Assembly: GCF_019649055.1 (NCBI RefSeq)
Contig: NW_026570232.1
Location: 1,054,001 to 1,118,000 of the forward strand
Reading direction: 5' to 3'
From: Paramacrobiotus metropolitanus
Taxonomy: Eukaryota > Tardigrada > Eutardigrada > Parachela > Macrobiotidae
DNA: 64,000 nucleotides
Shown: in pieces, positions 21,266 to 61,048 of the stretch
How the letters are laid out: every line of letters begins with the position of its first letter
Position numbering within the stretch: the first letter of the stretch is position 1
Notes under the pieces: generated by a model
Told to the model about the DNA's origin: nothing
The model's input: only the letters and a program-made list of their open reading frames with translations
Databases searched by the model: none
Made by a program: the position numbers and the translations under genes

Positions 21266-21345
21266 CATTTGGTCCACCACTCATTTTGTCCACCACTCAT
21301 TTCGTCCACCATTCATTTTGTCCACTGTACATTATGTCCACCATA
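21266..21345. repeat. 16-bp tandem array, five copies (left arm)
   Basis: Five units of the type CATTTTGTCCACCACT with one to four changes each. The array is mirrored in inverted orientation by the array at 21641-21720. Confidence 0.85.
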
Positions 21346-21640: not shown

Positions 21641-21720
21641 TAGTGGACAAAGTAATTGGTGGACAAAATGAATGGTGGATAAAATGAATGATGGACAAAA
21701 TGAATGGTGGACGAAATAAT
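21641..21720. repeat. 16-bp tandem array, five copies (right arm, inverted)
   Basis: Five units of the type TGGTGGACAAAATGAA, the reverse complement of the left array. The spacer between arms is 295 bp and has no protein-like frame. Confidence 0.85.
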
Positions 21721-22309: not shown

Positions 22310-23669
22310 ATGCGTAACGGATTTGTGTATCCATACAAGATGGACATTAGCCACATTGTCACTCCCGAATATCGCCTGGACTTCATTTCCAAACTGCACA
22401 ACATCTGCACATTCCAGGCAGTTTGCGCTGCGTTCAGCCTGTTGCTGCGCTTCGGCTCAGCTGTTCTAGTAGTCTCGTCAGGTACGCATCGTTGTTATAT
22501 ATAGCTGTTAATCTTATTATTTCTTCATAACCAATCGTCTGTGCGTTACGTGGATTAAGTACTTATTATTTGAGAAGTTTTACGTTCAGCTGATATCGTT
22601 GTGTGTTTTATCGTGTTTTCCCGTAGATTCATCGGATCCGGAAGACACCACACTGCACTACCTGCGCGCCCTCCTCATCGGCGTGCTAGACGTGACACTG
22701 TTCAGCAATGCGTTCTTCGGAGTGAGACTGATCCGGAAACTGCTCAGCTGCCGTCATCTGCCGAACAGTCGCGAGGAAATCTTTCTGCAGTCGCGTCTCT
22801 TCGCCAGCATCGGCGCCGTCAACGTCGTCTTGTGCATCGCGCACGCCGTCGCCTGCGTCCTCATCCTCATTCCCGGAATCATCACCCTCCTCGCCTACTA
22901 CCTGCAGGCGCACGCGCTCCTCATGGATCAGGTGACGTGGATGCAGACCGTCTTCGGACGTCAGCAGCTGGATGATACGGAAATCGCCATATCAAGTGCG
23001 CAACATTTGCTCGAGAATATTTTACAGTTATTATCTTTATTTGGGGTATCACGTTTTTGAAAGATATATCACATGCTTCTTTCAGAATTTAAAATTAGCG
23101 TGAAATTGCAGCGTTCCTTACTGCGAATATCCACGTTAAAAAAGGGATATCGCTTTCACTTTTTACTGCAGTATACTTCTACGGAAACTCTAAATACAGC
23201 TTCAGATTTAATTTAATCATAACAATTTAGTGTACTATTTTAGTACATCTAATAAATTACAGTAACTGAGTAACATTTGGTGTGAAATTACAGTTTTTCT
23301 ATTGAGTATTAACGGGAGACAGGAATAATAATTTTATCTTGAATAATGATAATCTGTGCGTATACTCTGAATGAAGCTGCAGATTAATTGTAATTATTTT
23401 GAAATAATTAAGCGCATTCATATGATTCGAATAAATCTGTGTTTAATGCTGTAATTTTTACAGTGCTGTATTCGCTTATGGTGGCGGTGCTGTGTGGAAA
23501 GGCCGCTAAAATTTGCCTGCGCAATGCAGTCATTTTAAGGGACTGTCATGATGGGGTTCTGGATACTGAAGAAGCCAACCAAAGGGAATTCATCGTGGAT
23601 GGAAAATACGCCAAAAGCCCACCACCCTACTCCGAACGCGATCCGGCTTTGCAGCAGGGACTGGTGTAA
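22310..23669 (+). CDS. Four-pass membrane protein, tandem family copy 6 (diverged)
   Basis: Exons 22310-22481 and 22627 onward join in phase 1 (donor G|GTACGC, acceptor ccgtag|AT) and encode an N-terminus with YPYKMDIS, TM1 (AFSLLLRFGSAVLVV), TM2 and TM3 (VNVVLCIAHAVACVLILIPGIITLL). A third exon ending at 23669 supplies TM4 (VFNAVIFTVLYSLMVAVLCG), the signature KAAKICLRNAVIL and a tail with PPPYSERD. This copy thus has an extra intron inside the region that is a single exon in copies 1-5. The best coherent solution is donor TCA A|GTGCGC after 22995 and acceptor at 23411-23412 (exon from 23413), about 265 aa, but the donor is weak and these two sites are uncertain. The GC-rich second exon (22627-22990) differs in base composition from the other copies. 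Confidence 0.7.
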
Positions 23670-38200: not shown

Positions 38201-39687
38201 CATACTGCGATCCACTGCAACAACAGGCTTCTCGAAAACAGATTTCTTTTTTGGCAGTGTAACCTTCTTTCTGGCTTTGGAGGCTGATAGGGTTTGGTTG
38301 ACGAAAGTACGGTTACGGACCACACGGAAACGTCCTGATGTGGCTTTTTTGGTCGGTGTCGGAGTGCTGTCGCTTTTCACCGGCGCAGCAGTTGCGGATT
38401 TCAAAGCGGAGGCAGTTCGGTTAGTTGGTCTTCGCACTCTCTTTACTGTTCGGTTTACAGTATTGCCGGTTTTGTTGGAAAAACGGGATGACGGCTGCTT
38501 GACCTTATTCAGTGTATGGGCGCCCAGGGTTCTGTCCGCAAAACCAAAATATTCGACACTCAAATGACGTTTAAGTACTTGAAAGACCGTGTTAAACGCA
38601 CCAGGCTGCTTACCGGTTTGCAACTACGGCGTCATCCGTTGTTAGCGCCCGGGATAAAGACTGCGGTCCAGATTTACCGACTTTGCTGGTTGACGATGGT
38701 CGTCTAAAGTTGGTTTGAGGAACACGAGGATTCCGGTATTCGGTCAATGAGGTGTTCCTGTTCATGCCGGAGCCTGAAAAACAAATGAGTATAGAAGATT
38801 CTTTTTGCAAAAGGTTTTTTTAGTGCCAGTGGGTTGTCACATCGTAGACATATTTAAGATCGGGGGTGGCCGAAACCTAACATGAAAACATGAACAGCTG
38901 CGAAATCTTAAGAATATGTTTCTTAATACATGTAAATCGCTAATCTATATTACCACCACGAACTGGCGGAAGTCATAGTAAGGCCCCGTCTTCACCACAC
39001 AAATAACAAAATACTATCGCAATTTAACTACACCTGCATGAAAAAAGCTTCCACGCACATTATGGAATCCCGTTACAAATCAGTTGATAAATTTTTAAAT
39101 TGTGGCAACATTCCTGACTTAAACAGATAAGAAAGCAGGTGCGGAACAAAGCAGATTCATATAAGTACAATAATTTTACCTTCATGAGCACCACTATCGT
39201 TCAGAAAACGCTGTGGGAAAGGACGGTACACCGACATGGTGGGCGCGTACGGCTGTCTGTGCAGTGGACTGATGAAATCGAATTCCTCTTGGCCGGGTGC
39301 GTGCAGATCTGTTAAGTCCGAATCCTGGTGTGTTAAAGTGGTGTTAAACCCACGGGAGCCCACGGGAACACCAAAGGTCTGGTTCCGCAACATGGGATTA
39401 ATTTCCGGTGGAGAGTAGCGACTGAGTGAGGCTCCGTACGCTGGAATGAACTGCTCCGGCAACACTTCGGGATGTTCTGCCATGAGGTCATGGTGCCCGG
39501 CTCCGTATTGTGGGAATGTTGGGCCGACAAATTGGTTGGGTATCGTTCTTTGGTAATCTTGTGATGCAGGAAAAAACTGTCGCGAAACGCGAGAGATACC
39601 GGTTTCTGGTTTTGTATCGTTCAGACTGATCGTATTGTGAGGAAGTGGTGTGCCGGATGAGTAGCATAACAGTAGGCTAAAATGCAC
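35267..39687 (-). CDS. Secreted mucin-like Ser/Thr-rich protein (paralogue of the giant repeat protein); 5' exon not found
   Basis: Exons 39180-39687, 38614-38773, 36446-38558, 36222-36365 and 35267-36013 join in phase to 3672 nt (1223 residues plus stop). The first begins at an acceptor (tgttgcag|GTG) directly with the hydrophobic signal core VHFSLLLCYSS, so a short start exon lies upstream and was not located. Then come RVSRQFFPASQ, an Asn/Pro/Arg-rich region with N-glycosylation sites, a strongly basic block (KKVTLPKKKSVFEKP, IKNKKRVIVKPKVKP), and about 900 residues rich in Thr, Ser, Ala, Val, Asp and Glu with TTT/STT clusters expected to carry O-glycans. No Cys-rich mucin, chitin-binding or membrane domain is visible. 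The layout and the CG|GTAAGC phase-2 junction match the gene at 41-59.8 kb. One intron is only 55 bp (38559-38613). It is likely extracellular matrix, cuticle or mucus, by inference. Confidence 0.75.
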
Positions 39688-40676
39688 CTGCAACAGAACA
39701 CATAAGTTATTTACTTTCCATGAATTTACACGAATAATTTAATTACAATTATTTACATAAACTTACACGAATAATATTTGTATCAATTACCGCTTGCAAT
39801 ATTATAGGTGCTTACTGTAAAGTTAAATAGTAATAAGCTAAATTAGGTAGCGCTGCCATACCATCAGAATTCTTCTCCAAGACCAAGTTGATCCACATTT
39901 AAAAGCCATTAGAATGCCTATGGATGGGTAGAGTTGGCGTGGAAAATTAATAATAAATAGAATTAAACGACCAGCCGGTAAAGGAATTCAGTAGTGAACT
40001 GCAAATGGCCCACAAAATTGAGCGAAACACATTCGCCGCACAACACTCGGAAGTAGAAATTATGTCTTGAGCATCAACGAATGGGCAGTGGGAAACGGCT
40101 TCCAGAAAAGCGTGGCGGCACTCCTAGCTAACAGTTCACAGAATCGAATCATCTTGGCTGCATAATGAATTCAACTGAGAAACTGCTGTTTGTGTTTCCG
40201 GTAAGTTTCGTTGGCACGTTTTTATCAATAAGACCCAGAAATGACCGATACAGCGTCATTGTACGTACTGTGCATGTTGATGTAGCTGCTTCGGCCACGT
40301 TGAGCTGCATAGCTCAAGTGTACATATCGTCTTGCTGGAACATGTAATTCATAAACCGAAATCGGTGTACTGCACTTGGTACAGATTACAGCTAATCCTA
40401 GTTCACATCGTTTGCGTAAACAGTCTCACGGGAATACAGCACGCAACCAGAAAACCGCATCTATACACGCGCAAATGGTATGCAGTTTTTCCATAGCACC
40501 GGCTGTCTACTACAGTAGACAACTCATACAGATATGTAATTCTCAAGTATTGATTTTTTGAGCAGCACCGAAGTACCGCTCAGCTCCACTAACAAAAGAA
40601 CGGCAGCTGCTTTAGGCGCTTTGCCGGGGAATAGCGAATTTTACCAAGACCATTTTCAGTTTCCTCAGTAACCCGG

Positions 40677-40877
40677 CTAGTGTTAAGGGACAAATTATTA
40701 CGATGCACCAAAGAATTTATCACTTTTACAAACTTGCAGTGCACTTATTAAAATTCTACAACAAAGCAATGAAATCGTAAATTCTGTAACTAATCTTACG
40801 ATCTAAGACAGAACGACTGCTCCAGTTAACAAAAATAATTCTTTGGTGCATCGTAATAATTTGTCCCTTAACACTAG
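40677..40877. mobile_element. MITE with 41-bp inverted repeats, TA-flanked
   Basis: CTAGTGTTAAGGGACAAATT at the left end recurs as its exact reverse complement at the right end (40837-40877). The match extends over 41 bp through GCACCAAAGAATT. TA lies at both edges as expected for Tc1/mariner-type insertion. It is about 195 bp with no coding capacity. Confidence 0.8.
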
Positions 40878-40894
40878 CACGAGAAATCTCGTGC
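40877..40894. repeat. 18-bp palindrome next to the MITE
   Basis: GCACGAGA AA TCTCGTGC, a perfect 8-bp stem with a 2-nt centre, abuts the right end of the MITE. It may be part of an older element. Confidence 0.7.
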
Positions 40895-41130: not shown

Positions 41131-44100
41131 TCAGGTACTATGCTCGCGCTCGAGCTCATCCGTAAATTTTGAAGAGGCTGACACTCTAGAACTTCCACGA
41201 GACGACAAAGATTCTGGCGCATCTGTCGCTACATCAGTTCCAGCTGCTGCTGCTGCAGTTGTAGGACTTGTACCAAAAGCGGCTGGGGAGTTGTCCGTTG
41301 AAGCGGGTGGGGTGAGGTCAGCAGCTGCAGCCGATGGGCTTCCGGCATCTACTGCTGCATTGTCTTTTGGGGCTGCCGTCGCTGCGTTGGTACCGGTTAT
41401 TGCTGCCGTTGAATCAGACGCTGCATCCGCTTGAGAGCCGTTGGAAAGGCCACCAGCTCCGGCAGTCGCACTCCAAGCATATGGTGCTACAGTGACAACT
41501 GGCATCGCTGTTGAAGAGTCTAACGCACCTCCAGTATCCACAACTGTGTCCACAGGAGCTGCCGTTGACGTATCTGCCGGTGTGTCGGTGACCGTTACTG
41601 TTGCAGTTGTATCTGGCGCAGCATCGGTGCTGGTCACAGCATCGGTTGACGCGGTGATAGGAACATCTGTTGCTCTTGTTGCGAGGATTGCAGCAGGAGT
41701 TGTATCCGGCACAGCATCAGTACTGGTCGGTTCAGCAATAGACACTGTAGAATGGACATCTGTCACAGCGCCCCTGATGGTCGATGCTGCGGTTGTGTCT
41801 GGTGTGGCGTCGGTACTGGTCGGCGCGTCAGTGGACATTGCCGAAGGCGTATCTGTCACTGCGTCCGTGATGGTCGATGCTGCAGTTGTATCAATTGCAG
41901 CATCGGTACTGGCCTGTGCGTCACTGGACATTGCAGAAGCCGCATCTGCCAACGCGTCCATGATGGTCGATGCTGCAGTTGTGTCTGGTGCATCGTCGGT
42001 ACTGGTCTGTGCGTCGGTGGACACTGCAGAAGGCGCATCTGTCACCGCGTCCGTGTTGGTCGATGCTGCAGTTGTAACAATTGCAGCATCGGTACTAGTC
42101 AGATCGTCGGCGGACATTGCAGAAGGCGCATCTGTCACTGCGTCCGTGATGGTTGCGGCTTCAGTTGTATCCGGCGCAGTATCGGTACTGACCACAGCAT
42201 CGGTTGACACTGCAGAAGCTGCATCTGTCACTGCATCCGGTAGAATCGATGCTGCGGTCGTGTCTGGTGCGGCGTCGGTACTGGTCGGCGCGTCAGTGGA
42301 CACTGCAGCAGGCGCTTCTGTCACCGCGTCCGTGTTGGTCGATGCTGCAGTTGTAACAATTGCAGCATCGGTACTAGTCAGATCGTCGGCGGACATTGCA
42401 GAAGGCGCATCTGTCACTGCGTCCGTGATGGTTGCGGCTTCAGTTGTATCCGGGGCAGTATCGGTACTGACCACAGCATCGGTTGACACTGCAAAAGCCG
42501 CATCTGTCACTGCGTCCGTGATGGTCAATGCTGCTGTTGTGTCTAGTGCGGCGTCGGTACTGGTCGGCGCGTCGGTGGACACTGCAGAAGGCGCATCTGA
42601 CACCGCGTCCGTGGTGGCCGATGCTGCGGTTGTGTCTGGTGCGGCGTCGGTACTGATCGGCGCGTCGGTGGAAACTGCAGAGTTGGCATCTCTCGGTTGC
42701 ATCACAGCATCGGTTGACACTACAGAAGGAGCATCTGTCACTGCGTTCGTGATGGTCGATGCTGCTGTTGTGTCCGGCGCGGCATCGGTACTGGTCGGCG
42801 CGTCGGTGGACATTGCAGAAGGAGCATCTGTTACCGCGTCCGCAATGGTCAATGCTGCAGTGGTGTCTGTTGCAGCGTTGGTACTGTTCGGCGCGTCGGT
42901 AGAAACTGCAGAGTTGGCATCTCTCGGTTGCATCACAGCATCGGTTGACACTACAGAAGGAGCATCTGTCACTGCGTTCGTGATGGTCGATGCTGCTGTT
43001 GTGTCTGTTGCGGCGTCGGTACTGGTCTGTGCACAGGTGGACATTGCAGAAGGCGCACCTGTCACCGCGTCCGTGATGGCTGCGGCTTCGATTGTATCCA
43101 GCGCAGCATCGGTACTGATCACATCATCGGTTGACACTGCAGAAGGAGCATCTGTCATTGCGTCCGTGATGGTCAATGCTGCTGTTGTGTCTAGTGCGGC
43201 GTCGGTACTGATCGGCGCGTCGGTGGACACTGCAGAAGGCGCATCTGACACCGCGTCCGCGTTGGTCGATGCTGCAGTTGTGTCTGTTGCAGCGTTGGTA
43301 CTGTTCGGCTCGTCGGTAGAAACTGCAGAGTTGGCATCTCTCGGTTGCATCACAGCATCGGTTGACACTGCAGAAGGCGCATCTGACACCGCGTCTGCGT
43401 TGGTCGATCCTGGAGTTGTGTTTGGTGCGGCGTCGGTACTGGTCGGCGCGTGGGTAGAAAACGCATAATTGGCATCTGTCACTGGGTCCGTGATGGTCGA
43501 TGCTGCAGTTGTGTCAATTACAGCATCGGTACTGGTCTGTGCGTCGGTGGACACTGCAGAAGGCGCATCTGTCACCGCGTCCGTGTTGGTCGATGCTGCA
43601 GTTGTGTCTGGTGCGGCGTCGGTACTGGTCGGCGCGTCGGTAGAAACTGCAGGATTGGCATCTGTCACTGCGTCCGAGTTGGTCGATGCTGCAGTTGTTT
43701 CGATTGCAGCATCGGTACTGGTCAGATCGTCGGTGGACATGGCAGAAGGCGCATCTGTCACTGCGTCCGTGATGGTTGCGGCTTCAGTTGTATCCGGCGC
43801 AGTATCGGTACTGACCACAGCATCGGTTGACACTGCAGAAGGAGCTTCTGTCACTGCGTCCGTGATGGTCAATGCTGCTGTTGTGTCTGGTGGGGCGTCG
43901 GTACTGGTCGGCGCGTCGGTGGACACTGCAGAAGGCGCATCTGTCACTGCGTCTGTGATGGCTGCGGCTTCGGTTGTATCCAGCGCAGCATCGGTACTGA
44001 TCACAGCATCGGTTGACACTGCAGAATGAGCTTCTGTCACTGCGTCCGTGATGGTCAATGCTGCTGTTGTGTCTGGTAAGGCGTCGGTACTGGTCTGTGC

Positions 44101-47100
44101 GTCGGTGGACATTGCAGAAGGCTCATCTGTCACCGCGTCCGTGCTGGTCGATGCTGCAGTTGTAACAATTGCAGCATCGGTACTGGTCAGATCGTCGGTG
44201 GACATGGCAGAAGGCGCATCTGTCACTGCGTCCGTGATGGTTGCGGCTTCAGTTGTATCCGGCGCTGTATCGGTACTGACCACAGCATCGGTTGACACTG
44301 CAGAAGCCGCATCTGTCACTGCATCCGGTAGAATCGATGCTGCGGTCGTGTCTGGTGCGGCGTTGGTACTGGTCGGCGCTTCGGTGGACATTGCAGAAGG
44401 AGCATCTGTTACCGCGTCCGCAATGGTCGATGCTGCAGTTGTGTCTAGTGCGGCGTCGGTACTGGTCGGCGCGTCGGTGGACATTGCAGAAGGAGCATCT
44501 GTTACCGCGTCCGCAATGGTCGATGCTGCAGTTGTGTCTAGTGCGGCGTTGGTACTGGTCGGCGCTTCGGTGGACATTGCAGAAGGAGCATCTGTTACCG
44601 CGTCCGCAATGGTCGATGCTGCAGTTGTGTCTGTTGCAGCGTCGGTACTGTTCGGCGCGTCGGTAGAAACTGCAGAATTGGCATCTGTCACTGCGTTCGT
44701 GATGGCTGCGGCTTCGGTTGTATCCAGCCCAGCATCGGTACTGATCACAGCATCGGTTGACACTGCAGAAGTAGCATCTGACACCGCGTCCGTGGTGGCC
44801 GATGCTGCGGTTGTGTCTGGTGCGGCGTCGGTACTGATCGGCGCGTCGGTGGAAACTGCAGAGTTGGCATCTCTCGGTAGCATCACAGCATCGGTTGAGA
44901 CTACAGAAGGAGCATCTGTCACTGCGTTCGTGATGGCTGCGGCTTCGGTTGTATCCAGCGCAGCATCGGTACTGATCACAGCATCGGTTGACACTGCAGA
45001 AGTAGCATCTGTCACTGCGTCCGTGATGGTCGATGCTGCAGTTGTGTCTAGTGCGGCGTCGGTACTGGTGGGCGCGTCGGTGGACATTGCAGAAGGAGCA
45101 TCTGTTACCGCGTCCGCAATGGTCGATGCTGCAGTTGTGTCTGTTGCAGCGTCGGTACTGTTCGGCGCGTCGGTAGAAACTGCAGAATTGGCATCTGTCA
45201 CTGCGTTCGTGATGGCTGCGGCTTCGGTTGTATCCAGCGCAGCATCGGTACTGATCACAGCATCGGTTGACACTGCAGAAGTAGCATCTGTCACTGGGTC
45301 CGTGATGGTCAATGCTGCTGTTGTGTCTAGTGCGGCGTCGGTACTGGTCGGCGCGTCGGTGGACACTGGAGAAGGCGCATCTGTCACTGCGTCTGTGATG
45401 GCTGCGGCTTCGGTTGTATCCAGCGCAGCATCGGTACTGATCACAGCATCGGTTGACACTGCAGAAGGAGCTTCTGTCACTGCGTCCGTGATGGTCAATT
45501 CTGCTGTTGTGTCTGGTAAGGCGTCGGTACTGGTCTGTGCGTCGGTGGACATTGCAGAAGGCGCATCTGTCACCGCGTCCGTGCTGGTCGATGCTGCAGT
45601 TGTTTCGATTGCAGCATCGGTACTGGTCAGATCGTCGGTGGACATGGCAGAAGGCGCATCTGTCACTGCGTCCGTGATGGTTGCGGCTTCAGTTGTATCC
45701 GGCGCTGTATCGGTACTGACCACAGCATCGGTTGACACTGCAGAAGGAGCTTCTGTCACTGCGTCCGTGATGGTCAATGCTGCTGTTGTGTCTGGTGGGG
45801 CGTCGGTACTGGTCGGCGCGTCGGTGGACACTGCAGAAGGCGCATCTGTCACTGCGTCTGTGATGGCTGCGGCTTCGGTTGTATCCAGCGCAGCATCGGT
45901 ACTGATCACAGCATCGGTTGACACTGCAGAATGAGCTTCTGTCACTGCGTCCGTGATGGTCAATGCTGCTGTTGTGTCTGGTAAGGCGTCGGTACTGGTC
46001 TGTGCGTCGGTGGACATTGCAGAAGGCGCATCTGTCACCGCGTCCGTGCTGGTCGATGCTGCAGTTGTAACAATTGCAGCATCGGTACTGGTCAGATCGT
46101 CGGTGGACATGGCAGAAGGCGCATCTGTCACTGCGTCCGTGATGGTTGCGGCTTCAGTTGTATCCGGCGCTGTATCGGTACTGACCACAGCATCGGTTGA
46201 CACTGCAGAAGCCGCATCTGTCACTGCATCCGGTAGAATCGATGCTGCGGTCGTGTCTGGTGCGGCGTTGGTACTGGTCGGCGCTTCGGTGGACATTGCA
46301 GAAGGAGCATCTGTTACCGCGTCCGCAATGGTCGATGCTGCAGTTGTGTCTAGTGCGGCGTCGGTACTGGTCGGCGCGTCGGTGGACATTGCAGAAGGAG
46401 CATCTGTTACCGCGTCCGCAATGGTCGATGCTGCAGTTGTGTCTGTTGCAGCGTCGGTACTGTTCGGCGCGTCGGAAGAAACTGCAGAATTGGCATCTGT
46501 CACTGCGTTCGTGATGGCTGCGGCTTCGGTTGTATCCAGCCCAGCATCGGTACTGATCACAGCATCGGTTGACACTGCAGAAGTAGCATCTGATACCGCG
46601 TCCGTGGTGGCCGATGCTGCGGTTGTGTCTGGTGCGGCGTCGGTATTGATCGGCGCGTCGGTGGAAACTGCATAGTTGGCATCTCTCGGTAGAATCACAG
46701 CATCGGTTGAGACTACAGAAGGAGCATCTGTCACTGCGTTCGTGATGGCTGCGGCTTCGGTTGTATCCAGCGCAGCATCGGTACTGATCACAGCATCGGT
46801 TGACACTGCAGAAGTAGCATCTGTCACTGCGTCCGTGATGGTCGATGCTGCAGTTGTGTCTAGTGCGGCGTCGGTACTGGTGGGCGCGTCGGTGGACATT
46901 GCAGAAGGAGCATCTGTTACCGCGTCCGCAATGGTCGATGCTGCAGTTGTGTCTGTTGCAGCGTCGGTACTGTTCGGCGCGTCGGTAGAAACTGCAGAAT
47001 TGGCATCTGTCACTGCGTTCGTGATGGCTGCGGCTTCGGTTGTATCCAGCGCAGCATCGGTACTGATCACAGCATCGGTTGACACTGCAGAAGTAGCATC

Positions 47101-50100
47101 TGTCACTGCGTCCGTGATGGTCAATGCTGCTGTTGTGTCTAGTGCGGCGTCGGTACTGGTCGGCGCGTCGGTGGACACTGGAGAAGGCTCATCTGACACC
47201 GCGTCCGCAATGGTCGATGCTGCAGTTGTGTCTGGTGCGGCGTCGGTACTGGTCGGCGCGTCGGCAGAAACTGCAGGATTGGCATCTGTCACTGCGTCTG
47301 TGATGGCTGCGGCTTCGGTTGTATCCAGCGCAGCATCGGTACTGATCACAGCATCGGTTGACACTGCAGAAGGAGCTTCTGTCACTGCGTCCGTGATGGT
47401 CAATTCTGCTGTTGTGTCTGGTAAGGCGTCGGTACTGGTCTGTGCGTCGGTGGACATTGCAGAAGGCGCATCTGTCACCGCGTCCGTGCTGGTCGATGCT
47501 GCAGTTGTAACAATTGCAGCATCGGTACTGGTCAGATCGTCGGTGGACATGGCAGAAGGCGCATCTGTCACTGCGTCCGTGATGGTTGCGGCTTCAGTTG
47601 TATCCGGCGCTGTATCGGTACTGACCACAGCATCGGTTGACACTGCAGAAGGAGCTTCTGTCACTGCGTCCGTGATGGTCAATGCTGCTGTTGTGTCTGG
47701 TGGGGCGTCGGTACTGGTCGGCGCGTCGGTGGACACTGCAGAAGGCGCATCTGTCACTGCGTCTGTGATGGCTGCGGCTTCGGTTGTATCCAGCGCAGCA
47801 TCGGTACTGATCACAGCATCGGTTGACACTGCAGAATGAGCTTCTGTCACTGCGTCCGTGATGGTCAATGCTGCTGTTGTGTCTGGTAAGGCGTCGGTAC
47901 TGGTCTGTGCGTCGGTGGACATTGCAGAAGGCGCATCTGTCACCGCGTCCGTGCTGGTCGATGCTGCAGTTGTAACAATTGCAGCATCGGTACTGGTCAG
48001 ATCGTCGGTGGACATGGCAGAAGGCGCATCTGTCACTGCGTCCGTGATGGTTGCGGCTTCAGTTGTATCCGGCGCTGTATCGGTACTGACCACAGCATCG
48101 GTTGACACTGCAGAAGCCGCATCTGTCACTGCATCCGGTAGAATCGATGCTGCGGTCGTGTCTGGTGCGGCGTTGGTACTGGTCGGCGCTTCGGTGGACA
48201 TTGCAGAAGGAGCATCTGTTACCGCGTCCGCAATGGTCGATGCTGCAGTTGTGTCTAGTGCGGCGTCGGTACTGGTCGGCGCGTCGGTGGACATTGCAGA
48301 AGGAGCATCTGTTACCGCGTCCGCAATGGTCGATGCTGCAGTTGTGTCTGTTGCAGCGTCGGTACTGTTCGGCGCGTCGGTAGAAACTGCAGAATTGGCA
48401 TCTGTCACTGCGTTCGTGATGGCTGCGGCTTCGGTTGTATCCAGCCCAGCATCGGTACTGATCACAGCATCGGTTGACACTGCAGAAGTAGCATCTGTCA
48501 CTGCGTCCGTGATGGTCGATGCTGCAGTTGTGTCTAGTGCGGCGTCGGTACTGGTGGGCGCGTCGGTGGACATTGCAGAAGGAGCATCTGTTACCGCGTC
48601 CGCAATGGTCGATGCTGCAGTTGTGTCTGTTGCAGCGTCGGTACTGTTCGGCGCGTCGGTAGAAACTGCAGAATTGGCATCTGTCACTGCGTTCGTGATG
48701 GCTGCGGCTTCGGTTGTATCCAGCGCAGCATCGGTACTGATCACAGCATCGGTTGACACTGCAGAAGTAGCTTCTGTCACTGCGTCCGTGATGGTCAATT
48801 CTGCTGTTGTGTCTGGTAAGGCGTCGGTACTGGTCTGTGCGTCGGTGGACATTGCAGAAGGCGCATCTGTCACCGCGTCCGTGCTGGTCGATGCTGCAGT
48901 TGTAACAATTGCAGCATCGGTACTGGTCAGATCGTCGGTGGACATGGCAGAAGGCGCATCTGTCACTGCGTCCGTGATGGTTGCGGCTTCAGTTGTATCC
49001 GGCGCTGTATCGGTACTGACCACAGCATCGGTTGACACTGCAGAAGGAGCTTCTGTCACTGCGTCCGTGATGGTCAATGCTGCTGTTGTGTCTGGTGGGG
49101 CGTCGGTACTGGTCGGCGCGTCGGTGGACACTGCAGAAGGCGCATCTGTCACTGCGTCTGTGATGGCTGCGGCTTCGGTTGTATCCAGCGCAGCATCGGT
49201 ACTGATCACAGCATCGGTTGACACTGCAGAATGAGCTTCTGTCACTGCGTCCGTGATGGTCAATGCTGCTGTTGTGTCTGGTAAGGCGTCGGTACTGGTC
49301 TGTGCGTCGGTGGACATTGCAGAAGGCGCATCTGTCACCGCGTCCGTGCTGGTCGATGCTGCAGTTGTAACAATTGCAGCATCGGTACTGGTCAGATCGT
49401 CGGTGGACATGGCAGAAGGCGCATCTGTCACTGCGTCCGTGATGGTTGCGGCTTCAGTTGTATCCGGCGCTGTATCGGTACTGACCACAGCATCGGTTGA
49501 CACTGCAGAAGCCGCATCTGTCACTGCATCCGGTAGAATCGATGCTGCGGTCGTGTCTGGTGCGGCGTTGGTACTGGTCGGCGCTTCGGTGGACATTGCA
49601 GAAGGAGCATCTGTTACCGCGTCCGCAATGGTCGATGCTGCAGTTGTGTCTAGTGCGGCGTCGGTACTGGTCGGCGCGTCGGTGGACATTGCAGAAGGAG
49701 CATCTGTTACCGCGTCCGCAATGGTCGATGCTGCAGTTGTGTCTGTTGCAGCGTCGGTACTGTTCGGCGCGTCGGTAGAAACTGCAGAATTGGCATCTGT
49801 CACTGCGTTCGTGATGGCTGCGGCTTCGGTTGTATCCAGCCCAGCATCGGTACTGATCACAGCATCGGTTGACACTGCAGAAGTAGCATCTGTCACTGCG
49901 TCCGTGATGGTCGATGCTGCAGTTGTGTCTAGTGCGGCGTCGGTACTGGTGGGCGCGTCGGTGGACATTGCAGAAGGAGCATCTGTTACCGCGTCCGCAA
50001 TGGTCGATGCTGCAGTTGTGTCTGTTGCAGCGTCGGTACTGTTCGGCGCGTCGGTAGAAACTGCAGAATTGGCATCTGTCACTGCGTTCGTGATGGCTGC

Positions 50101-53100
50101 GGCTTCGGTTGTATCCAGCGCAGCATCGGTACTGATCACAGCATCGGTTGACACTGCAGAAGTAGCATCTGTCACTGGGTCCGTGATGGTCAATGCTGCT
50201 GTTGTGTCTAGTGCAGCATCGGTACTGGTCAGATCGTCGGTGGACATGGCAGAAGGCGCATCTGTCACTGCGTCCGTGATGGTTGCGGCTTCAGTTGTAT
50301 CCGGCGCAGTATCGGTACTGACCACAGCATCGGTTGACACTGCAGAAGGAGCTTCTGTCACTGCGTCCGTGATGGTCAATGCTGCTGTTGTGTCTGGTGG
50401 GGCGTCGGTACTGGTCGGCGCGTCGGTGGACACTGCAGAAGGCGCATCTGTCACTGCGTCTGTGATGGCTGCGGCTTCGGTTGTATCCAGCGCAGCATCG
50501 GTACTGATCACAGCATCGGTTGACACTGCAGAAGGAGCTTCTGTCACTGCGTCCGTGATGGTCAATTCTGCTGTTGTGTCTGGTAAGGCGTCGGTACTGG
50601 TCTGTGCGTCGGTGGACATTGCAGAAGGCGCATCTGTCACCGCGTCCGTGCTGGTCGATGCTGCAGTTGTTTCGATTGCAGCATCGGTACTGGTCAGATC
50701 GTCGGTGGACATGGCAGAAGGCGCATCTGTCACTGCGTCCGTGATGGTTGCGGCTTCAGTTGTATCCGGCGCTGTATCGGTACTGACCACAGCATCGGTT
50801 GACACTGCAGAAGGAGCTTCTGTCACTGCGTCCGTGATGGTCAATGCTGCTGTTGTGTCTGGTGGGGCGTCGGTACTGGTCGGCGCGTCGGTGGACACTG
50901 CAGAAGGCGCATCTGTCACTGCGTCTGTGATGGCTGCGGCTTCGGTTGTATCCAGCGCAGCATCGGTACTGATCACAGCATCGGTTGACACTGCAGAATG
51001 AGCTTCTGTCACTGCGTCCGTGATGGTCAATGCTGCTGTTGTGTCTGGTAAGGCGTCGGTACTGGTCTGTGCGTCGGTGGACATTGCAGAAGGCGCATCT
51101 GTCACCGCGTCCGTGCTGGTCGATGCTGCAGTTGTAACAATTGCAGCATCGGTACTGGTCAGATCGTCGGTGGACATGGCAGAAGGCGCATCTGTCACTG
51201 CGTCCGTGATGGTTGCGGCTTCAGTTGTATCCGGCGCTGTATCGGTACTGACCACAGCATCGGTTGACACTGCAGAAGCCGCATCTGTCACTGCATCCGG
51301 TAGAATCGATGCTGCGGTCGTGTCTGGTGCGGCGTTGGTACTGGTCGGCGCTTCGGTGGACATTGCAGAAGGAGCATCTGTTACCGCGTCCGCAATGGTC
51401 GATGCTGCAGTTGTGTCTAGTGCGGCGTCGGTACTGGTCGGCGCGTCGGTGGACATTGCAGAAGGAGCATCTGTTACCGCGTCCGCAATGGTCGATGCTG
51501 CAGTTGTGTCTGTTGCAGCGTCGGTACTGTTCGGCGCGTCGGTAGAAACTGCAGAATTGGCATCTGTCACTGCGTTCGTGATGGCTGCGGCTTCGGTTGT
51601 ATCCAGCCCAGCATCGGTACTGATCACAGCATCGGTTGACACTGCAGAAGTAGCATCTGTCACTGCGTCCGTGATGGTCGATGCTGCAGTTGTGTCTAGT
51701 GCGGCGTCGGTACTGGTGGGCGCGTCGGTGGACATTGCAGAAGGAGCATCTGTTACCGCGTCCGCAATGGTCGATGCTGCAGTTGTGTCTGTTGCAGCGT
51801 CGGTACTGTTCGGCGCGTCGGTAGAAACTGCAGAATTGGCATCTGTCACTGCGTTCGTGATGGCTGCGGCTTCGGTTGTATCCAGCGCAGCATCGGTACT
51901 GATCACAGCATCGGTTGACACTGCAGAAGTAGCATCTGTCACTGGGTCCGTGATGGTCAATGCTGCTGTTGTGTCTAGTGCAGCATCGGTACTGGTCAGA
52001 TCGTCGGTGGACATGGCAGAAGGCGCATCTGTCACTGCGTCCGTGATGGTTGCGGCTTCAGTTGTATCCGGCGCAGTATCGGTACTGACCACAGCATCGG
52101 TTGACACTGCAGAAGGAGCTTCTGTCACTGCGTCCGTGATGGTCAATGCTGCTGTTGTGTCTGGTGGGGCGTCGGTACTGGTCGGCGCGTCGGTGGACAC
52201 TGCAGAAGGCGCATCTGTCACTGCGTCTGTGATGGCTGCGGCTTCGGTTGTATCCAGCGCAGCATCGGTACTGATCACAGCATCGGTTGACACTGCAGAA
52301 GGAGCTTCTGTCACTGCGTCCGTGATGGTCAATTCTGCTGTTGTGTCTGGTAAGGCGTCGGTACTGGTCTGTGCGTCGGTGGACATTGCAGAAGGCGCAT
52401 CTGTCACCGCGTCCGTGCTGGTCGATGCTGCAGTTGTTTCGATTGCAGCATCGGTACTGGTCAGATCGTCGGTGGACATGGCAGAAGGCGCATCTGTCAC
52501 TGCGTCCGTGATGGTTGCGGCTTCAGTTGTATCCGGCGCTGTATCGGTACTGACCACAGCATCGGTTGACACTGCAGAAGGAGCTTCTGTCACTGCGTCC
52601 GTGATGGTCAATGCTGCTGTTGTGTCTGGTGGGGCGTCGGTACTGGTCGGCGCGTCGGTGGACACTGCAGAAGGCGCATCTGTCACTGCGTCTGTGATGG
52701 CTGCGGCTTCGGTTGTATCCAGCGCAGCATCGGTACTGATCACAGCATCGGTTGACACTGCAGAATGAGCTTCTGTCACTGCGTCCGTGATGGTCAATGC
52801 TGCTGTTGTGTCTGGTAAGGCGTCGGTACTGGTCTGTGCGTCGGTGGACATTGCAGAAGGCGCATCTGTCACCGCGTCCGTGCTGGTCGATGCTGCAGTT
52901 GTAACAATTGCAGCATCGGTACTGGTCAGATCGTCGGTGGACATGGCAGAAGGCGCATCTGTCACTGCGTCCGTGATGGTTGCGGCTTCAGTTGTATCCG
53001 GCGCTGTATCGGTACTGACCACAGCATCGGTTGACACTGCAGAAGCCGCATCTGTCACTGCATCCGGTAGAATCGATGCTGCGGTCGTGTCTGGTGCGGC

Positions 53101-56100
53101 GTTGGTACTGGTCGGCGCTTCGGTGGACATTGCAGAAGGAGCATCTGTTACCGCGTCCGCAATGGTCGATGCTGCAGTTGTGTCTAGTGCGGCGTCGGTA
53201 CTGGTCGGCGCGTCGGTGGACATTGCAGAAGGAGCATCTGTTACCGCGTCCGCAATGGTCGATGCTGCAGTTGTGTCTGTTGCAGCGTCGGTACTGTTCG
53301 GCGCGTCGGTAGAAACTGCAGAATTGGCATCTGTCACTGCGTTCGTGATGGCTGCGGCTTCGGTTGTATCCAGCCCAGCATCGGTACTGATCACAGCATC
53401 GGTTGACACTGCAGAAGTAGCATCTGACACCGCGTCCGTGGTGGCCGATGCTGCGGTTGTGTCTGGTGCGGCGTCGGTATTGATCGGCGCGTCGGTGGAA
53501 ACTGCAGAGTTGGCATCTCTCGGTAGCATCACAGCATCGGTTGAGACTACAGAAGGAGCATCTGTCACTGCGTTCGTGATGGCTGCGGCTTCGGTTGTAT
53601 CCAGCGCAGCATCGGTACTGATCACAGCATCGGTTGACACTGCAGAAGTAGCATCTGTCACTGCGTCCGTGATGGTCGATGCTGCAGTTGTGTCTAGTGC
53701 GGCGTCGGTACTGGTGGGCGCGTCGGTGGACATTGCAGAAGGAGCATCTGTTACCGCGTCCGCAATGGTCGATGCTGCAGTTGTGTCTGTTGCAGCGTCG
53801 GTACTGTTCGGCGCGTCGGTAGAAACTGCAGAATTGGCATCTGTCACTGCGTTCGTGATGGCTGCGGCTTCGGTTGTATCCAGCGCAGCATCGGTACTGA
53901 TCACAGCATCGGTTGACACTGCAGAAGGAGCTTCTGTCACTGCGTCCGTGATGGTCAATTCTGCTGTTGTGTCTGGTAAGGCGTCGGTACTGGTCTGTGC
54001 GTCGGTGGACATTGCAGAAGGCGCATCTGTCACCGCGTCCGTGCTGGTCGATGCTGCAGTTGTAACAATTGCAGCATCGGTACTGGTCAGATCGTCGGTG
54101 GACATGGCAGAAGGCGCATCTGTCACTGCGTCCGTGATGGTTGCGGCTTCAGTTGTATCAGGCGCTGTATCGGTACTGACCACAGCATCGGTTGACACTG
54201 CAGAAGGCGCATCTGTCACTGCGTCCGTGATGTTCGATGCTGCAGTTGTGTCTAGTGCGGCGTCGGTACTGGTCGGCGCGTCGGTGGACATTGCAGAAGG
54301 AGCATCTGTTACCGCGTCCGCAATGGTCGATGCTGCAGTTGTGTCTGTTGCAGCGTCGGTACTGTTCGGCGCGTCGGTAGAAACTGCAGAATTGGCATCT
54401 GTCACTGCGTTCGTGATGGCTGCGGCTTCGGTTGTATCCAGCGCAGCATCGGTACTGATCACAGCATCGGTTGACACTGCAGAAGTAGCATCTGTCACTG
54501 CGTCCGTGATGGTCAATGCTGCTGTTGTGTCTAGTGCGGCGTCGGTACTGGTCGGCGCGTCGGTGGACACTGGAGAAGGCGCATCTGACACTACGTCCGT
54601 GATGGTCGATGCTGCAGTTGTGTCAATTACAGCATCGGTACTGGACTGTGCGTCGGTGGACACTGCAGAAGGCGCATCCGTCACTGCGTATTTAATGGCT
54701 GCGGGTTCAGTTGTATCTGGTGCGGCATCGGTACTGGTCGGCGCGTCGGTGGACACTGCAGAAGGCGCATCTGACACCGCCTCTTTAATGGCTGCGGCTT
54801 CAGTTGTATATGGTGCGGCATCGGTACTGGTGGGCGCGTCAGTGGACACGGCAGAAGGCGCATCTGACACCGCGTCCGCAATGGTCGATGCTGCAGTTGT
54901 ATCAATTGCAGCATCGGTACTGGTCGGCGCGTCGGTGGACACTGCAGAAAGCGCATCTGTCACTGCGTCTGTGATGGTTGCGGCTTCAGTTGTGTCAGGC
55001 GCAGCATCGGTATTGACCACAGCATCCGCTGACACTGCAGAAGGCGTATCTGTCACTGCATCCGGTAGAATCGATGCTGCGGTTCTGTCTGGTGCGGCGT
55101 CGGTACTACCCAGCGGGTCGGTGGACACTGCAGAAGGCGCATCTGTTACCGCGTCCGTGTTGGTCGATGCTGCAGTTGTGTCTGGTGCGGCGTCGGTACT
55201 AGTCAGCGCGTCGGTGGACACTGCAGAAGACGCATCCGTCACTGCGTCTTTAATGGCTGCGGCTTCAGTTGTATCTGGTGCGGCACCGGTACTTGTCGGC
55301 GCGTCGGTGGACACTGCAGAAGGCGCATATGACACTGCGTCCGCGTTGGTCGATGCTGGAGTTGTGTTTGGTGCGGCGTCGGTACTGGTCGGCGCGCGGG
55401 TAGAAGTGTCAAAATTTCCATCTGCCACTGCGTCTGTGATGGTCGATGCTGCAGTTGTGTCTGGTGTGGCGTCGGTACTAGTCAGCGCGTCGATAGAAAC
55501 TGCAGAATTGGGATCTGTCACTGCGTCCGTGATGGTCGATGCTGCAGTTGTATCAATTGCAGCATCGGTACTGACCACAGCATCGGCTGACACTGCAGAA
55601 GGCGTATCTGTCACTGCATCCGGTAGAATCGATGCTGCGGTTGTGTCTGGTGCGGCGTCGGTTCTGGTCAGCGCGTCGGTCCACACTGCAGAAGGCGCAT
55701 CTGACACTGCGTCCGTGGTGGTCGATGCTGCAGTTGTGTCTGGTCTGGCATTTGTCGTTGCTACGGTCGAACGGTCAACGAGGGCGACTGTTGTGCTTTC
55801 AGTATGCGCAGCTGTGTCTGCAGCAGCTGCCGTTGACGTATCTGTTGCCACGTCGGTAACCGTTGCTGCTGCCGTTGCATCTGGTACAGCATCGGTGCTG
55901 GTCACTGTGCCGGCTGGCGATGCGTCCGGCGCTGCGGTCGACATGGTCGCTGCTGCAGTTGTATCAATTACAGCAACGGCACTGATCGGCACGTCGGTGG
56001 AAACTGCAGAAGAGGCATCTGTTACTGCTTCCGGTAGAATCGATGCTGCGGTTGTGTGAGGTGCGGCGTCGGTACTGGTCAGCTCGTCGGTGGACACTGC

Positions 56101-59100
56101 AGAAGGCGCATCTGTCACTGCGTCCGTGATGGTTGCGGCTTCAGTTGTATCCGGCGCAGCATCGGTACTGATCACAGCATCGGTTGACACAGCAGATGGC
56201 GCATCTGTCACCGCGTCCGTGTTGGTCGATGCTGCAGTTGTGTCTTTTGCGGAATCGGTACTGGTCGGCGCGTCGGTAGAAACTGCAGAATTGGCATCTG
56301 TCACTGCGTCCGTGTTGGTCGATGCTGCAGTTGTATTAATTGCAGCATCGGTACTTGTCGGCGCGTCGGTTGACACTGCAGAAGGCGCATCTGTCACTGG
56401 GTCTGTGATGGTTGCGGCTTCAGTTGTGTCAGGCGCAGCATCGGTACTGACCACAGCATCGGCTGACACTGCAGAAGGCGCATCTGTCACTGCGTCTGTG
56501 ATGGTTGCGGCTTCAGTTGTGTCAGGCGCAGCATCGGTACTGATCACGGCATCGGTTGATACTGCAGTTGTGTCTGGTGCGGAATCGGTACTGGTCGGCG
56601 CGTCGGTAAAAACTGCAGAATTGACATCTGTCACTGCGTCCGTGTTGGTCGGTGCTGCAGTTGTATCAATTGCAGCATCGGTACTGGTCTGTGAGTCGGT
56701 GGACACTGCAGAAGGCGCATCTGTCACTGGGTCTGTGATGGTTGCGGCTTCAGTTGTGTCAGGCGCAGCATCGGTACTGACCACAGCATCGGCTGACACT
56801 GCAGAAGGCGCATCTGTCACCGCGTCTGTGTTGGTCGATGCCGTCGTTGTGTCTAGTGCGGCGTCGGTACTGATCGGTGCGTCGGTGGAAACTGCAAAAG
56901 AGTCATCTGTCACTGCGTTCGTGATGGTCGATCCTGCAGTTGTGTCTGGTGCGGCGTCGGTACTGGTCAGCGCGTCGGTGGACAGTTCAGCAGGCGCATC
57001 TGTCACTGCGTTCGCGATGGTCGACACTGCAATCGTATCTGGTCCGGCATCGCTCGTAGTCACGACGTCGGTTGACACTGCAGACGGCGCTTCGGTCACT
57101 GCGTCGGTAACCGTCGCTTCTGCAGTTGTACCTAGTGCGTCATCGGTGCTGGTGACTGTGTCGGTTGACGATGCATCTGTTGCTGCGTCCGTTATGGCCG
57201 CATTTGAAGTTGTGTCTGTTCCGGCATCTGTCGTTGCTGCGGTGACAAGGTCAGCGGAAGCGGCTGTTGTGCTTTTAATATCCACAGCTGTGTTTGCAGG
57301 AGCTGCCATTGACGTATCTGCCGGTGCGTCGGTAACCGTTGCTGTTGCAGTTTTATCTGGCGCAGCATCGGTGCTGGTCACGGTGTCGGTTGATACTGCA
57401 GAAGGCGCAGCTGTTACTGCGTCCTTGATGGTCGATGTTGCAGTTGTACCTGGTTGGGCATCGCTGGTGGTCACGGCGTCGCTGGTGGTCACTGGGTCGT
57501 ACGACACTGCAGAAGGCGCATCTGTCACTACTTCCTTAGCGGTCGATGCTGGAGTTGTATCTGGTGCGGCATCAGTACTGGTCACAACGTCGGTTGTCGC
57601 ATCTGTGGCAAAGTCACCCTTTGCAGCGTCCGTGCTACTTCCGGATTCTGTTGCTGCATTGGTTGTCACAGCCGTAGATGCGTCGGTCGGTGCCTCAGAC
57701 ACCGCTTCTGGCTGAATCGTTTCCGACACGGATGCCTCAGTAACCGCGACAGTTATTTGTTTTGGCTGACCATCAGTTTGAGCGCCGTAAGCTTGATTGT
57801 CAAATGCATTACGGGCTTCTGCTACGGTTGTCGTTTGATCCTTTCCTGGAGGTGTCGTTGTTGCATCAGTTGTGCCAACCACGCTTAATGATGCGTTTCC
57901 TGCTCCGTTTTTGGGCTTAATGTCTTCAACACCTATCAGAATATCGTTTTTAAACGCTGCAGGTGTTTCCTCTTGGTTGGTTGGCATGGTAACATTGTCG
58001 GGTTCCAGCTCGATCAATAGCATAAAGGGTGTTTCTTCCTCTGAGGGTGTTCGAGGCAATACGTTAGTGTTAATTGCCGGGACCGCAGCTGCTGCAGAAA
58101 CTTTTGCAGTCTTTTTCGGCTTTCTGCGTATTGGAAACGGCGCACCCTTGCTTGGCTTTTTCTTTTTGGCAGCAAATTTTTTAGGAGTGGGAGGTGACTG
58201 GGTCAGTGATTCCGTTAGGGGCACTATTCTTACTGGTGGGACCACCTGAGCCCGAGAAAGCGAATACGGTTTGTGCTGGCTCGTCCTTCCAGCCAGATCT
58301 GAGGGCGGTATGCGTTTTCTTTCCGTTTGCGCTTGGATTTGGGTCTTCTTTATTGCAAACTGGGTCTGTTCGCGCTCATTCTGGACTGCCTGATTGGCAT
58401 CTGGCAAAAATGGCGATTTCCATCTGTTGACAGAGGGTCTCTGTTTTGCCGATGTACTGGAACAAAATCACGTACTCATCAGGCGGAATAATATAACACG
58501 GGTCTCTATCGCACTGTGGAGAAATTTCTCGCTTGGATCGATACTTATTTATTAAGCTCCGACCTGCATTGTATTTCGTTCATACCTGTTTTTAATTGCA
58601 TACTGCGCTCGTTGGGAGTATCCGTTCGATTGTGAGCTTTCTGGCAGAATTTGTCGTTGGCTGACCGCTGAAAGAGCACCTCCCTGCGGACCTATCTGGG
58701 CACTAATGATTTGCTTCCAAGGTTCTATAAGGAAAAGCGTTATGTTGCCGTTGTCTGTTAGGAGTAAATTTACCGATTTGGAACTACAGGCATACCTGGT
58801 GCATATTCCGTTTCATTATAGTAACGCCTGAATGGTAAATCAACCGGAGCGGTTCCTGTCCGTAGCCGCTCGCCGGTAAGCGTCCTGTTGCGAAAGATCT
58901 GATTCTGTGGCAATGGTCTCGATTCAAGATTGTTATTTGCCGGACGTCGCATCGAATTCGACTGGCGATAGTTTCGGCTGTCGGGTGGGACACGATTGGG
59001 AAACTGCCAGAAAGAATCGATAGCTGGCACACGGAAGCTCGTCAAAGCAACAGAAGATTCACGCCTTACCGGTGGATCTGGGTATTGGTGTACTCTAGAA

Positions 59101-59755
59101 GGCGTATCTAAACTATCGTCATAACGGATCCCGGGTTGGAATTGTCGGACAACGCGCAACAGAGTTCTTTCCAAGGACGGATCTTCGTCAGCCCGGAAAG
59201 AGTCGTACGATACCGGGTGCGCCATTATGGTCCAGGACAGCATAACAACAAACTGCAATAAATTATACGTATATTAATGACCCGCTGATAAATACGTGAA
59301 TAAACTGTTAATTATCGAAGGCTTAGGCTCGCAATCATTTTGGCAGAAGTCAAATTAGTAATTTTCGTCCATAACTATAAAGACGTGATTGGAAAACGGG
59401 AATGCGAAGCAAGAAAGGGTAAAAAGTTGAGAAATGGTAGCAAAATATTCGTGCAGCAGCCACTATAGCCCTTATGAATGGGAAAAATTAATACAAATAT
59501 TTCGTGTAGATTTGAATTAAAGACACCTGAGACAATTGTTACTGTCCCTTAACAAAGAAAAACTTTATTAAACGCTTTTCCAGTTTAAAAGGTCACGAGT
59601 ATACCACTGGCAGTTAAAAGAGTATAATTATGCTACACATGTACCATCAGGCATGCAATGCAATAAAACAAAAGTACTTGTACTAATGTTTCACTCACCA
59701 AAACAATCGAAAAGTTTCCGCCGTAAATCCGATGGAGATTCCGTAAAACGGACAT
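41131..59755 (-). CDS. Giant secreted mucin-like protein with about 170 31-residue repeats
   Basis: Three exons join in phase: 59699-59755, 58774-59252 and 41131-58423, 17,829 nt, about 5,942 aa. Exon 1 (MSVLRNLHRIYGGNFSIVL) continues into FVVMLSWTIMAHP to form the signal peptide. Exon 2 has RVVRQFQPG and an Arg/Pro/Asn-rich region with NRT and NET glycosylation sites. The third, uninterrupted 17.3-kb exon starts with a basic block (KKFAAKKKKPSKG, IRRKPKKTAK), then repeats from about residue 440 to 5,750 of the type STDAPTSTDAALDTTAAS + TITDAVTDAPSAV. These contain almost only S, T, D, A, V, P, I, L, N and M, with no Cys and almost no Lys or aromatics. A unique Ala/Ser-rich end finishes at LEREHST. 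The repeats should be disordered, very acidic and densely O-glycosylatable. No lectin, chitin-binding or anchor domain is visible. Confidence 0.85.
41650..57640 (-). repeat. Coding minisatellite, 93-bp unit with higher-order blocks
   Basis: The unit is 93 bp (31 codons). A few units are 45 bp (15 codons, containing LPRDANSAV or QPRDANSAV). Equivalent positions recur at 44048, 45953, 47858, 49253, 51020 and 52787, giving block lengths 1905, 1905, 1395, 1767 and 1767. These equal 20 units plus one 45-bp unit (twice), 15 units, and 19 units (twice). The two 1767-bp blocks translate identically as far as I can see. Block edges outside 44-55 kb are more diverged. The limits given are approximate. 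Confidence 0.9.
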
Positions 59756-61048
59756 TGTTACTGGTTTGTCAAAAGCAGAAAGTCAGCAATTTCTTTTTGG
59801 TGATTTAATTATTAATCACACAACGTAAAGCTATCTCAAAGCTGCATAAAATAAGTTGCCGGTAATGGCATACTGTGTTTTACTTTTCCTTTTGCTTTGG
59901 TACCAAAAAAACTAGTGCAAAATTACGCGCAATACAGTTTGAAACATATACAACGCGTAATATGAGTGATTATTACGATGTTGCATATAGCCGATCGAAC
60001 AAGTGCCCCAGTTTTGCAGATTCCGAAACGGAGTTCCCAAGGATCGTCAACATTACGAGATGGCAGTTTGCATTTTTCGAACAAGCTACCCGTAGCTTAA
60101 GAGCACAAGGATTCCGACTGAACAGGTCTTAAGCGTGAGTTGTTGTGTTTACTGTTTATTGTTTCTGTTGATCATGATGATCTAACAGATACGGTATTTA
60201 GATATTGTAACCGCGTGCTGAACAGATGGTTTACATCGTTTTTAAAACAAACATTTTAAATTTTGTCACCCGTGATTTGCACTTCGTGCTCATATAATTA
60301 TATCAGTGCCCAAATATGCAGTAGATTCAACCTCGGAAACGTTTTCGGTTTATTAAAGCCCAGCTCGCGCACCTAACGCCTTTTTTACGCGCGTTAGGCA
60401 TTAGCAAAAAGCATACAAAGAGGAAAACATAATACATACTTGAGAAAAAATAATATTTCTTTATTACATTTATCGAATGTCTTCTCTTGTCTTCCAATTT
60501 ATTCGATTGTTTTTTACGAATGTACGTGTACTCGTAGTATGCTTATTTATTTGTTTTGCCAGCTGGAAGGGTGCCATACCTGACAATAGATGCAATACTT
60601 TCCTATCACTGAAACACAAGGTTGATATAACAAGATGGCAAGATACTTGTACTGTACGTATGCGCAGTACTGTAATTTACTTGTACTGGCACTTTATAAG
60701 TCGTGTAACACCTTGCGTAATTTTTCCATCCGAAATTTGTTTTGGAATTCACAACACATCAGAAATCGGGTTGCATCAGTAGTATTTATTTCAAAGCTAT
60801 AGCATCAGAATTTCAAGCTAAAATTTTAAACCGACACTCCATAAAGCGCGTGACCTCAGAACGTTATCATACTCGAATATTATACAAACATAAAACTGAC
60901 AGGGGATCAGTTTACGTCGTAGTTTGTGTCGTACTGCGTAGCAGTGGGTAAAGCTATAAAGCCCAAATGTTAGCAGTCGTTGAAGTAAACATTCTGTCTT
61001 TGTGTTTACAGTAGACAGTACAGCTTCATCATCACAGATAAATAGCGT
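59756..61048. other. Intergenic, no gene recognised
   Basis: The upstream region of the giant mucin-like gene and the 3' region of the propeller-like gene. Open frames here are short and featureless. A possible polyadenylation signal for the minus-strand neighbour lies near 60782. Confidence 0.45.

Follow-up and report, generated by a model that had tools for sequence, protein, structure and literature searches.

Gene model of the giant frame

We analysed a window of 64,000 nucleotides from the tardigrade Paramacrobiotus metropolitanus (assembly GCF_019649055.1, contig NW_026570232.1, positions 1,054,001 to 1,118,000 of the forward strand), the sequence of which contains no N. The longest open frame of the window lies on the minus strand and comprises 5,778 open codons (41134-58467, with the stop codon at 41131-41133), and we describe it here as the core of a probable gene for a secreted, acidic, mucin-like polymer. 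Its translation consists largely of Ala (24.4 %), Thr (22.3 %), Asp (14.0 %), Ser (11.4 %), Val (7.4 %) and Pro (5.9 %). The second-longest open frame of the window (52769-56056, plus strand, 1,096 codons) is antisense to the giant frame and lies inside its repeat array, where it is a by-product of the repeat; the same antisense frame meets nine stops across the array.

A preliminary description of this DNA had proposed a giant single coding exon at 41131-58423, which indeed falls within the open frame, joined in phase to two upstream exons that supply a signal peptide. The upstream exons are in phase and encode a hydrophobic, signal-like N-terminus; a third one had been overlooked. Our model therefore has four minus-strand exons, with AG/GT at all borders, phases in register and a product of 5,992 amino acids (aa). 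Exon 1 (59699-59755) carries the ATG, with an in-frame stop upstream of it, and encodes the N-terminal part of the predicted signal peptide (MSVLRNLHRIYGGNFSIVL), ending in phase 0 at the donor GTGAGT. Exon 2 (58796-59252; acceptor AATTTATTGCAG, donor GTATGCCT) would supply the remainder of the signal peptide, a propeptide, a furin-like site and the start of the mature chain, and ends in phase 1. The overlooked exon 3 (58586-58724; acceptor TTTTCCTTATAG, donor GTATGAAC) ends in phase 2 and has a counterpart exon in the neighbouring gene. Exon 4 encodes the end of a basic head, the repeat array and a short non-repeat C-terminus; a better acceptor (ATTTTGTTCCAG) places it at 41131-58456, so that it spans 17,326 bp including the stop codon and reaches beyond the extent first proposed. 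The two-exon join of the preliminary description is likewise in phase and open, and the four-exon model was preferred because its intron phases 0, 1 and 2 recur in the neighbouring gene, which runs downward from 39909. All exon borders rest on splice consensus.

The repeat array and its assembly

The repeat array (41587-57627, minus strand) consists of 165 in-frame units of 31 aa with the consensus DAVTDAPSAVSTDAPTSTDAAPDTTAASTIT, close to the earlier estimate of about 170, and 83 of the units are distinct in DNA. The units make up 85 % of the 5,992-aa product. Unit spacing is exactly 31 aa in 154 of 164 cases and 46 aa in six, with four others differing. Each unit holds on average 5.17 Asp and Glu (D+E) and 10.8 Ser and Thr (S+T) residues, which agrees with the earlier statement of about five Asp per 31 residues and dense potential O-glycan sites. 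No frame breaks are present in the assembled array, as had been claimed, and repeat copies align solely at lags divisible by 3 (best block score 2,913, compared with 11 at other lags). A block of 2,965 bp is repeated at a lag of 1,767 bp (19 units) with a difference of 0.13 %, and units 1-11 are the most divergent (identity to the consensus 0.789 vs 0.840-0.864 elsewhere). Such an array would expand and contract by unequal exchange of whole units.

In the genome (169,799,020 bases in 533 contigs), the 19-base gene part of a TPS-TPP primer published for Paramacrobiotus sp. TYO (PMC8277472) matches exactly once, vs 0 matches in a control, and lies 0.8 kb upstream of Glyco_transf_20 matches; the gene part of the reverse primer was absent from this 3-kb locus. 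Glyco_transf_20 occurs on three contigs, and three TPS-TPP genes are named in that paper. The genome was searched with the repeat as query, match counts from these searches being lower bounds. This search resulted in at least 93 matching places, all within the giant frame of the same contig; among the matches listed, the repeat is confined to this locus. We consider it improbable that the exact array is partly a product of assembly, with the gene real and its length over- or under-stated. The near-identical 2,965-bp block would fit such an error, as would the non-unique 2-kb words of exon 4 (10 %) and the small number of reads expected to span the array because the nanopore read N50 is ~17 kb (PMC11191345; this and the other PMC papers cited here are drawn on in excerpt). 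Every 3-kb word in exon 4 is unique, however, the assembly was polished at a coverage of 45x nanopore and 62x Illumina (PMC8277472), and the genome search found no repeat copy on a second contig. The unit count may be off; the gene itself is sound.

Selection on the reading frame

The unbroken frame had been taken to reflect strong selection. Openness alone is weak evidence, because a stop arises from only one of the 279 possible single changes in the consensus unit. Event counts and neutral simulation were based on a tree of the 83 distinct units, although any such tree is rough because units exchange. The 479 events on the tree, most frequent at third codon positions (201, vs 136 at first and 142 at second positions), include no stops, whereas neutral change simulated along it produced 16 stops on average and was stop-free in 1 of 500 runs. 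A non-coding satellite or a dying gene, its frame open through composition, would accord with the difficulty of reaching a stop from the consensus and with an antisense frame that is also open for 1,096 codons, but we regard this as highly improbable given the rarity of stop-free simulations, the 9 to 276 stops that the other frames of the array carry, the splice sites and phases conserved with the neighbouring gene, and the unique non-repeat ends.

The dN/dS-like ratio on the unit tree is 0.69 overall. It is nominally lowest at Asp/Glu codons (0.42; 38 nonsynonymous and 18 synonymous, 56 events), followed by Ser/Thr codons (0.67; 91 and 64) and those elsewhere (0.81; 164 and 104). A naive ratio computed against the consensus gave 0.38 overall and 0.08 for Asp/Glu, and the strong charge conservation that the latter value suggested was rejected, as it becomes 0.42 on the tree and is hence nominal only. 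Between the youngest duplicate blocks most differences change the amino acid, as at lag 6,834 (12 of 13) and lag 1,395 (16 of 22). Thus, the unbroken frame does exceed chance, but the constraint is weak rather than strong: selection keeps the frame and, roughly, its broad composition and charge, and leaves the exact sequence loose.

Features of the predicted protein

The N-terminus forms the sole strong hydropathy peak of the protein (1.93 from aa 15) and was judged by eye to be a signal peptide. The 19-residue hydropathy maximum is 1.26 outside the first 60 aa and 0.92 in the last 300 aa, which gives no sign of a further membrane anchor. The motif RVVR↓Q (aa 52-55; 59145-59156, minus strand), a furin-like sequence and putative cleavage site, is followed by a GIRYD motif (in PGIRYDD; 59118-59132, minus strand) common to several minus-strand genes further along the contig; this motif was spotted in the giant gene only after the other genes had been read.

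The whole protein contains 33.1 % S+T, 6.1 % Pro, one Cys, and 950 D+E vs 88 Lys and Arg (K+R), and the backbone from residue 57 has a computed isoelectric point (pI) of 4.05 and mass of 574.8 kDa. Charge is divided between a basic head (aa 56-353; 49 K/R vs 20 D/E, net +29) and an acidic tail after aa 353 (33 K/R vs 925 D/E, net -892). The 5,305 residues of the array include 13 aromatics and 21 K/R.

Pfam scans of exon 2, of the frame 41134-58467 (as three pieces) and of the spliced first 330 aa gave no family at E<=0.1. In the genome, the non-repeat start of exon 4 matched itself only, as did the exon 2 frame at E<=0.001. Relatives of the repeat were sought in viral, prokaryote and PDB sequences, animal proteins lying outside this comparison. 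PDB sequences gave no relative of one 124-aa stretch, and neither viral contigs (57 pattern stretches) nor prokaryote contigs (258 pattern stretches) gave a confirmed one.

Comparison with mucins and other giant repeat proteins

Syed et al. 2008 defined Drosophila mucins by S+T above 25 % and by repeats that contain proline and cover one third of the length or more (PMC2515642). The tardigrade protein has 33.1 % S+T, 165 units of 31 aa, and units that cover 85 % of its length with 5.6 % Pro in the array. The earlier statement that no named family has this unit holds for Pfam and PDB, but the protein falls within a published description of mucins with repeats rich in proline, threonine and serine (PTS). 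Features of gel-forming mucins (VWD, Cys-rich and Cys-knot domains) are absent, with no Pfam family at E<=0.1 and one Cys in 5,992 aa, as are those of tethered mucins, with no transmembrane segment by hydropathy and no SEA match in the Pfam scans. The Drosophila description also includes O-glycosylation of the repeats, in regard to which the genome contains pairs resembling N-acetylgalactosamine (GalNAc) transferases, in which Glycos_transf_2 is followed downstream on the same strand by Ricin_B_lectin, at 8 loci within 2.5 kb and 10 within 5 kb.

Among the closest known counterparts are Drosophila mucins without a conserved domain, of which the excerpted study describes six (PMC2515642): they share S+T above 25 %, many repeats that contain proline and extend over more than one third of the chain, and a secreted appearance, whereas the tardigrade backbone is far more acidic (~5 D/E per 31 residues) and has a basic head and a 31-residue unit without a Pfam match. 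The variable number tandem repeat exons of human MUC4, MUC12 and MUC16 are likewise large and in frame, with block duplication and degenerate edge units (PMC13345508), but no VWD, Cys-knot, SEA or transmembrane part was detected in the tardigrade protein. Spider AgSp1 and AgSp2 share very long repetitive coding sequences and a wet secreted polymer (PMC6553539), while the tardigrade gene lacks a spidroin terminal domain, has another repeat and is shorter than AgSp1. The preliminary description ranked the product among the largest secreted repeat proteins. This is true loosely, and its size is no record because repeat proteins of at least this size exist in human, fly and spider: according to the same excerpts, human alleles reach 27,843 bp (MUC4) and up to 23,080 aa (MUC12; PMC13345508), fly mucins reach 23,000 aa (PMC2515642) and the AgSp1 coding sequence is 42,270 bp (PMC6553539).

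The array is without Cys units, whereas the units of the Balbiani ring genes of Chironomus contain Cys. Those genes resemble the present one in being giant secretory repeat genes with few introns and clustered relatives; they measure ~40 kb, and the long ones have four introns (PMC4192438, in excerpt). Giant repeat mucins are already known, which makes the gene a striking addition to a known kind and not a class of its own; its interest lies in its phylum, its acidity, the two charge blocks and its neighbourhood. In the open-licence literature we found no mucin gene paper from Tardigrada, and nothing of use on tardigrade coats, stylets or secreted proteins.

A candidate secreted polymer

These features point, with a probability of roughly 0.7, to a genuine, lineage-restricted gene of a tardigrade whose product would be an acidic, mucin-like polymer, secreted and domain-less, that hydrates or coats a surface. 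The chain would enter the secretory path via its signal peptide and its propeptide would be cut at RVVR↓Q, leaving a two-block polymer of ~575 kDa before sugars. The first block would be the basic head of ~300 residues (net +29), bearing N-glycans, and the second the acidic tail (~5,600 residues, net -892), in which roughly one residue in three is Ser or Thr. GalNAc-transferases would decorate these residues, and the tail would form an extended, hydrated, negatively charged brush. The head would anchor the tail to the tails of other molecules or to a partner that is acidic or a polysaccharide, and so build a coat or mucus without disulphide links. Secretion, cleavage, glycosylation, hydration and tissue are here predicted from the sequence, by which mucus, glue, cuticle coat and desiccation gel are indistinguishable. 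If expressed, the gene would offer a specific candidate for the polymer of a tardigrade mucus or coat, with an array testable for length variation between animals, and the keeping of charge while Ser/Thr positions drift is relevant to the question of which properties selection maintains in mucin-like proteins.

Several observations weigh against this interpretation. Constraint on the unit tree is weak overall, the naive ratios shrink on the tree, and the Ser/Thr sites are no better kept than average, although essential glycan sites might be expected to be kept. In 100-aa windows, S+T reaches 40 % in 0 of 118, and 5 % Pro together with 25 % S+T occurs in 82 of 118; the array is a mild PTS domain. 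In a charge-hydropathy plot the array falls on the folded side (0.162 vs a boundary of 0.249), and AlphaFold, given a 24-row alignment and four-unit stretches, predicted beta strands at low confidence (mean predicted local distance difference test, pLDDT, 62; predicted template modelling score, pTM, 0.52). Glycosylation, invisible to both methods, would change this picture of the fold. Local similarity between the giant gene and its neighbour is also within chance, as 91/500 and 409/500 shuffles reach the observed scores.

The fold predictions bear on whether the product is instead a secreted structural material, such as a glue, a cement, a silk-like substance or an egg coat, whose repeats form beta structure or condense, which we think unlikely. 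A beta-rich four-unit model and a position on the folded side would suit such a material, a chain with blocks of opposite charge would tend to condense, and recently block-duplicated giant repeat exons also occur in spider glue spidroins (PMC6553539, in excerpt). Yet the five AlphaFold models of four units disagree (pLDDT 62, 48, 46, 29 and 27), and an array with so few aromatics and K/R is poor for cross-linking. Pfam contains models of spidroin terminal domains, and none of these is present in the N- or C-terminal parts, as no Pfam family was found in the parts scanned.

The acidity of the array raises a further alternative, that of a calcium-binding matrix protein, for example of a mineralised feeding apparatus. 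Tardigrade stylets are mineralised, although a literature search returned no support for this. The ~five Asp per unit, the nominally strongest constraint at Asp/Glu and the pI of 4.05 are in keeping with calcium binding, but the Asp residues are widely spaced, and the 5,305 array residues contain no D.D.D, no EF-hand-like D.[DN].[DNS]G and eight S.E phosphorylation motifs, making this very unlikely.

Neighbouring gene and surroundings on the contig

The neighbouring gene (36407-39909, minus strand, with further exons to about 35270) has no comparable tandem array. It has in common with the giant gene the intron phases 0, 1 and 2, a site of the form RVxR↓QF (here RVSR↓QF), and a basic head followed by an acidic S/T tail. 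In a 947-aa model without its last exons the two parts have net charges of +34 (55 K/R, 21 D/E) and -55 (23, 78), and a charge peak of 34 was reached in 0/2000 shuffles. The best BLASTP match between the two genes had E 1.2, and neighbour exon 2 matched itself and one further place (E 0.7) in the genome. As putative paralogues the two genes share gene structure, but the significant sequence similarity that had been expected was not found, as shuffles reach the observed scores.

To the right of the window lie more minus-strand genes with long frames rich in S/T, Pro or N-glycan sequons. A GI[RK][YF]D-type pattern over 94 kb gave 18 matches vs one in a reversed-sequence control, 15 of them at 59,132-91,862, and strict RYNx[S/T] gave 51 vs six, 40 of them at 68,102-91,784. 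The frames of the giant gene and its neighbour contain no RYNx[S/T] match, only the GIRYD motif falling there. Right-flank frames that were scanned had no convincing Pfam family, and one of them searched in the genome matched itself and the adjacent frame only. It is tempting, if speculative and on balance doubtful, to see the giant gene as the extreme member of a tardigrade-specific, fast-evolving, secreted glycopolymer locus (~55 kb of co-oriented genes carrying motifs of the GIRYD type and RYNx[S/T]), its product being a self-anchoring, cysteine-free polyelectrolyte that, via its two charge blocks, would form an external gel or coat possibly relevant in drying; relevance of the coat in drying is speculation.

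Within this flank, contig positions 1118001-1148000 (pieces L015-L017) carry minus-strand GWERxxxNxxFxxRYNx[S/T] or GIRYD/RYNx[S/T] repeats with many N-glycan sequons, co-oriented with the giant gene. Two sequon-rich minus-strand frames (L015:1640-2116 and L017:4826-5212) share GSGxxxFEI after motif-rich frames, perhaps as a common C-terminal domain. Pfam matches of the Complex1_LYR_1 type in L015 were dismissed, with 0 passing stretches. A separate gene of several exons occupies 60900-63960 (minus strand); it has a Ser/Thr-rich part and a signal-like start (MKERWITTSGERYMFWYASLLIVCLSAHAG), and the phase of its first intron differs from that in the giant gene.

Elsewhere in the window, an Rfam scan of which gave 0 matches, six open frames of 176-235 codons (4314-23057, plus strand) resemble tandem four-pass membrane proteins; the two that were scanned had sub-threshold Pfam matches only (DUF7649, 19.3 bits vs 27). 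Just downstream of the giant gene, at 40670-40880, ~40-base inverted arms (TTAAGGGACAAATTATTACGATGCACCAAAGAATT and its complement) stand ~100 bases apart and resemble, by eye, a small non-autonomous transposon. Finally, HGLSCxKSTKGRWARHKExNSxAKNCCESAGFPCQLEP is common to 1026-1691 (plus strand) and L017:15-401 (minus strand), marking a dispersed element that is perhaps a retrotransposon remnant.

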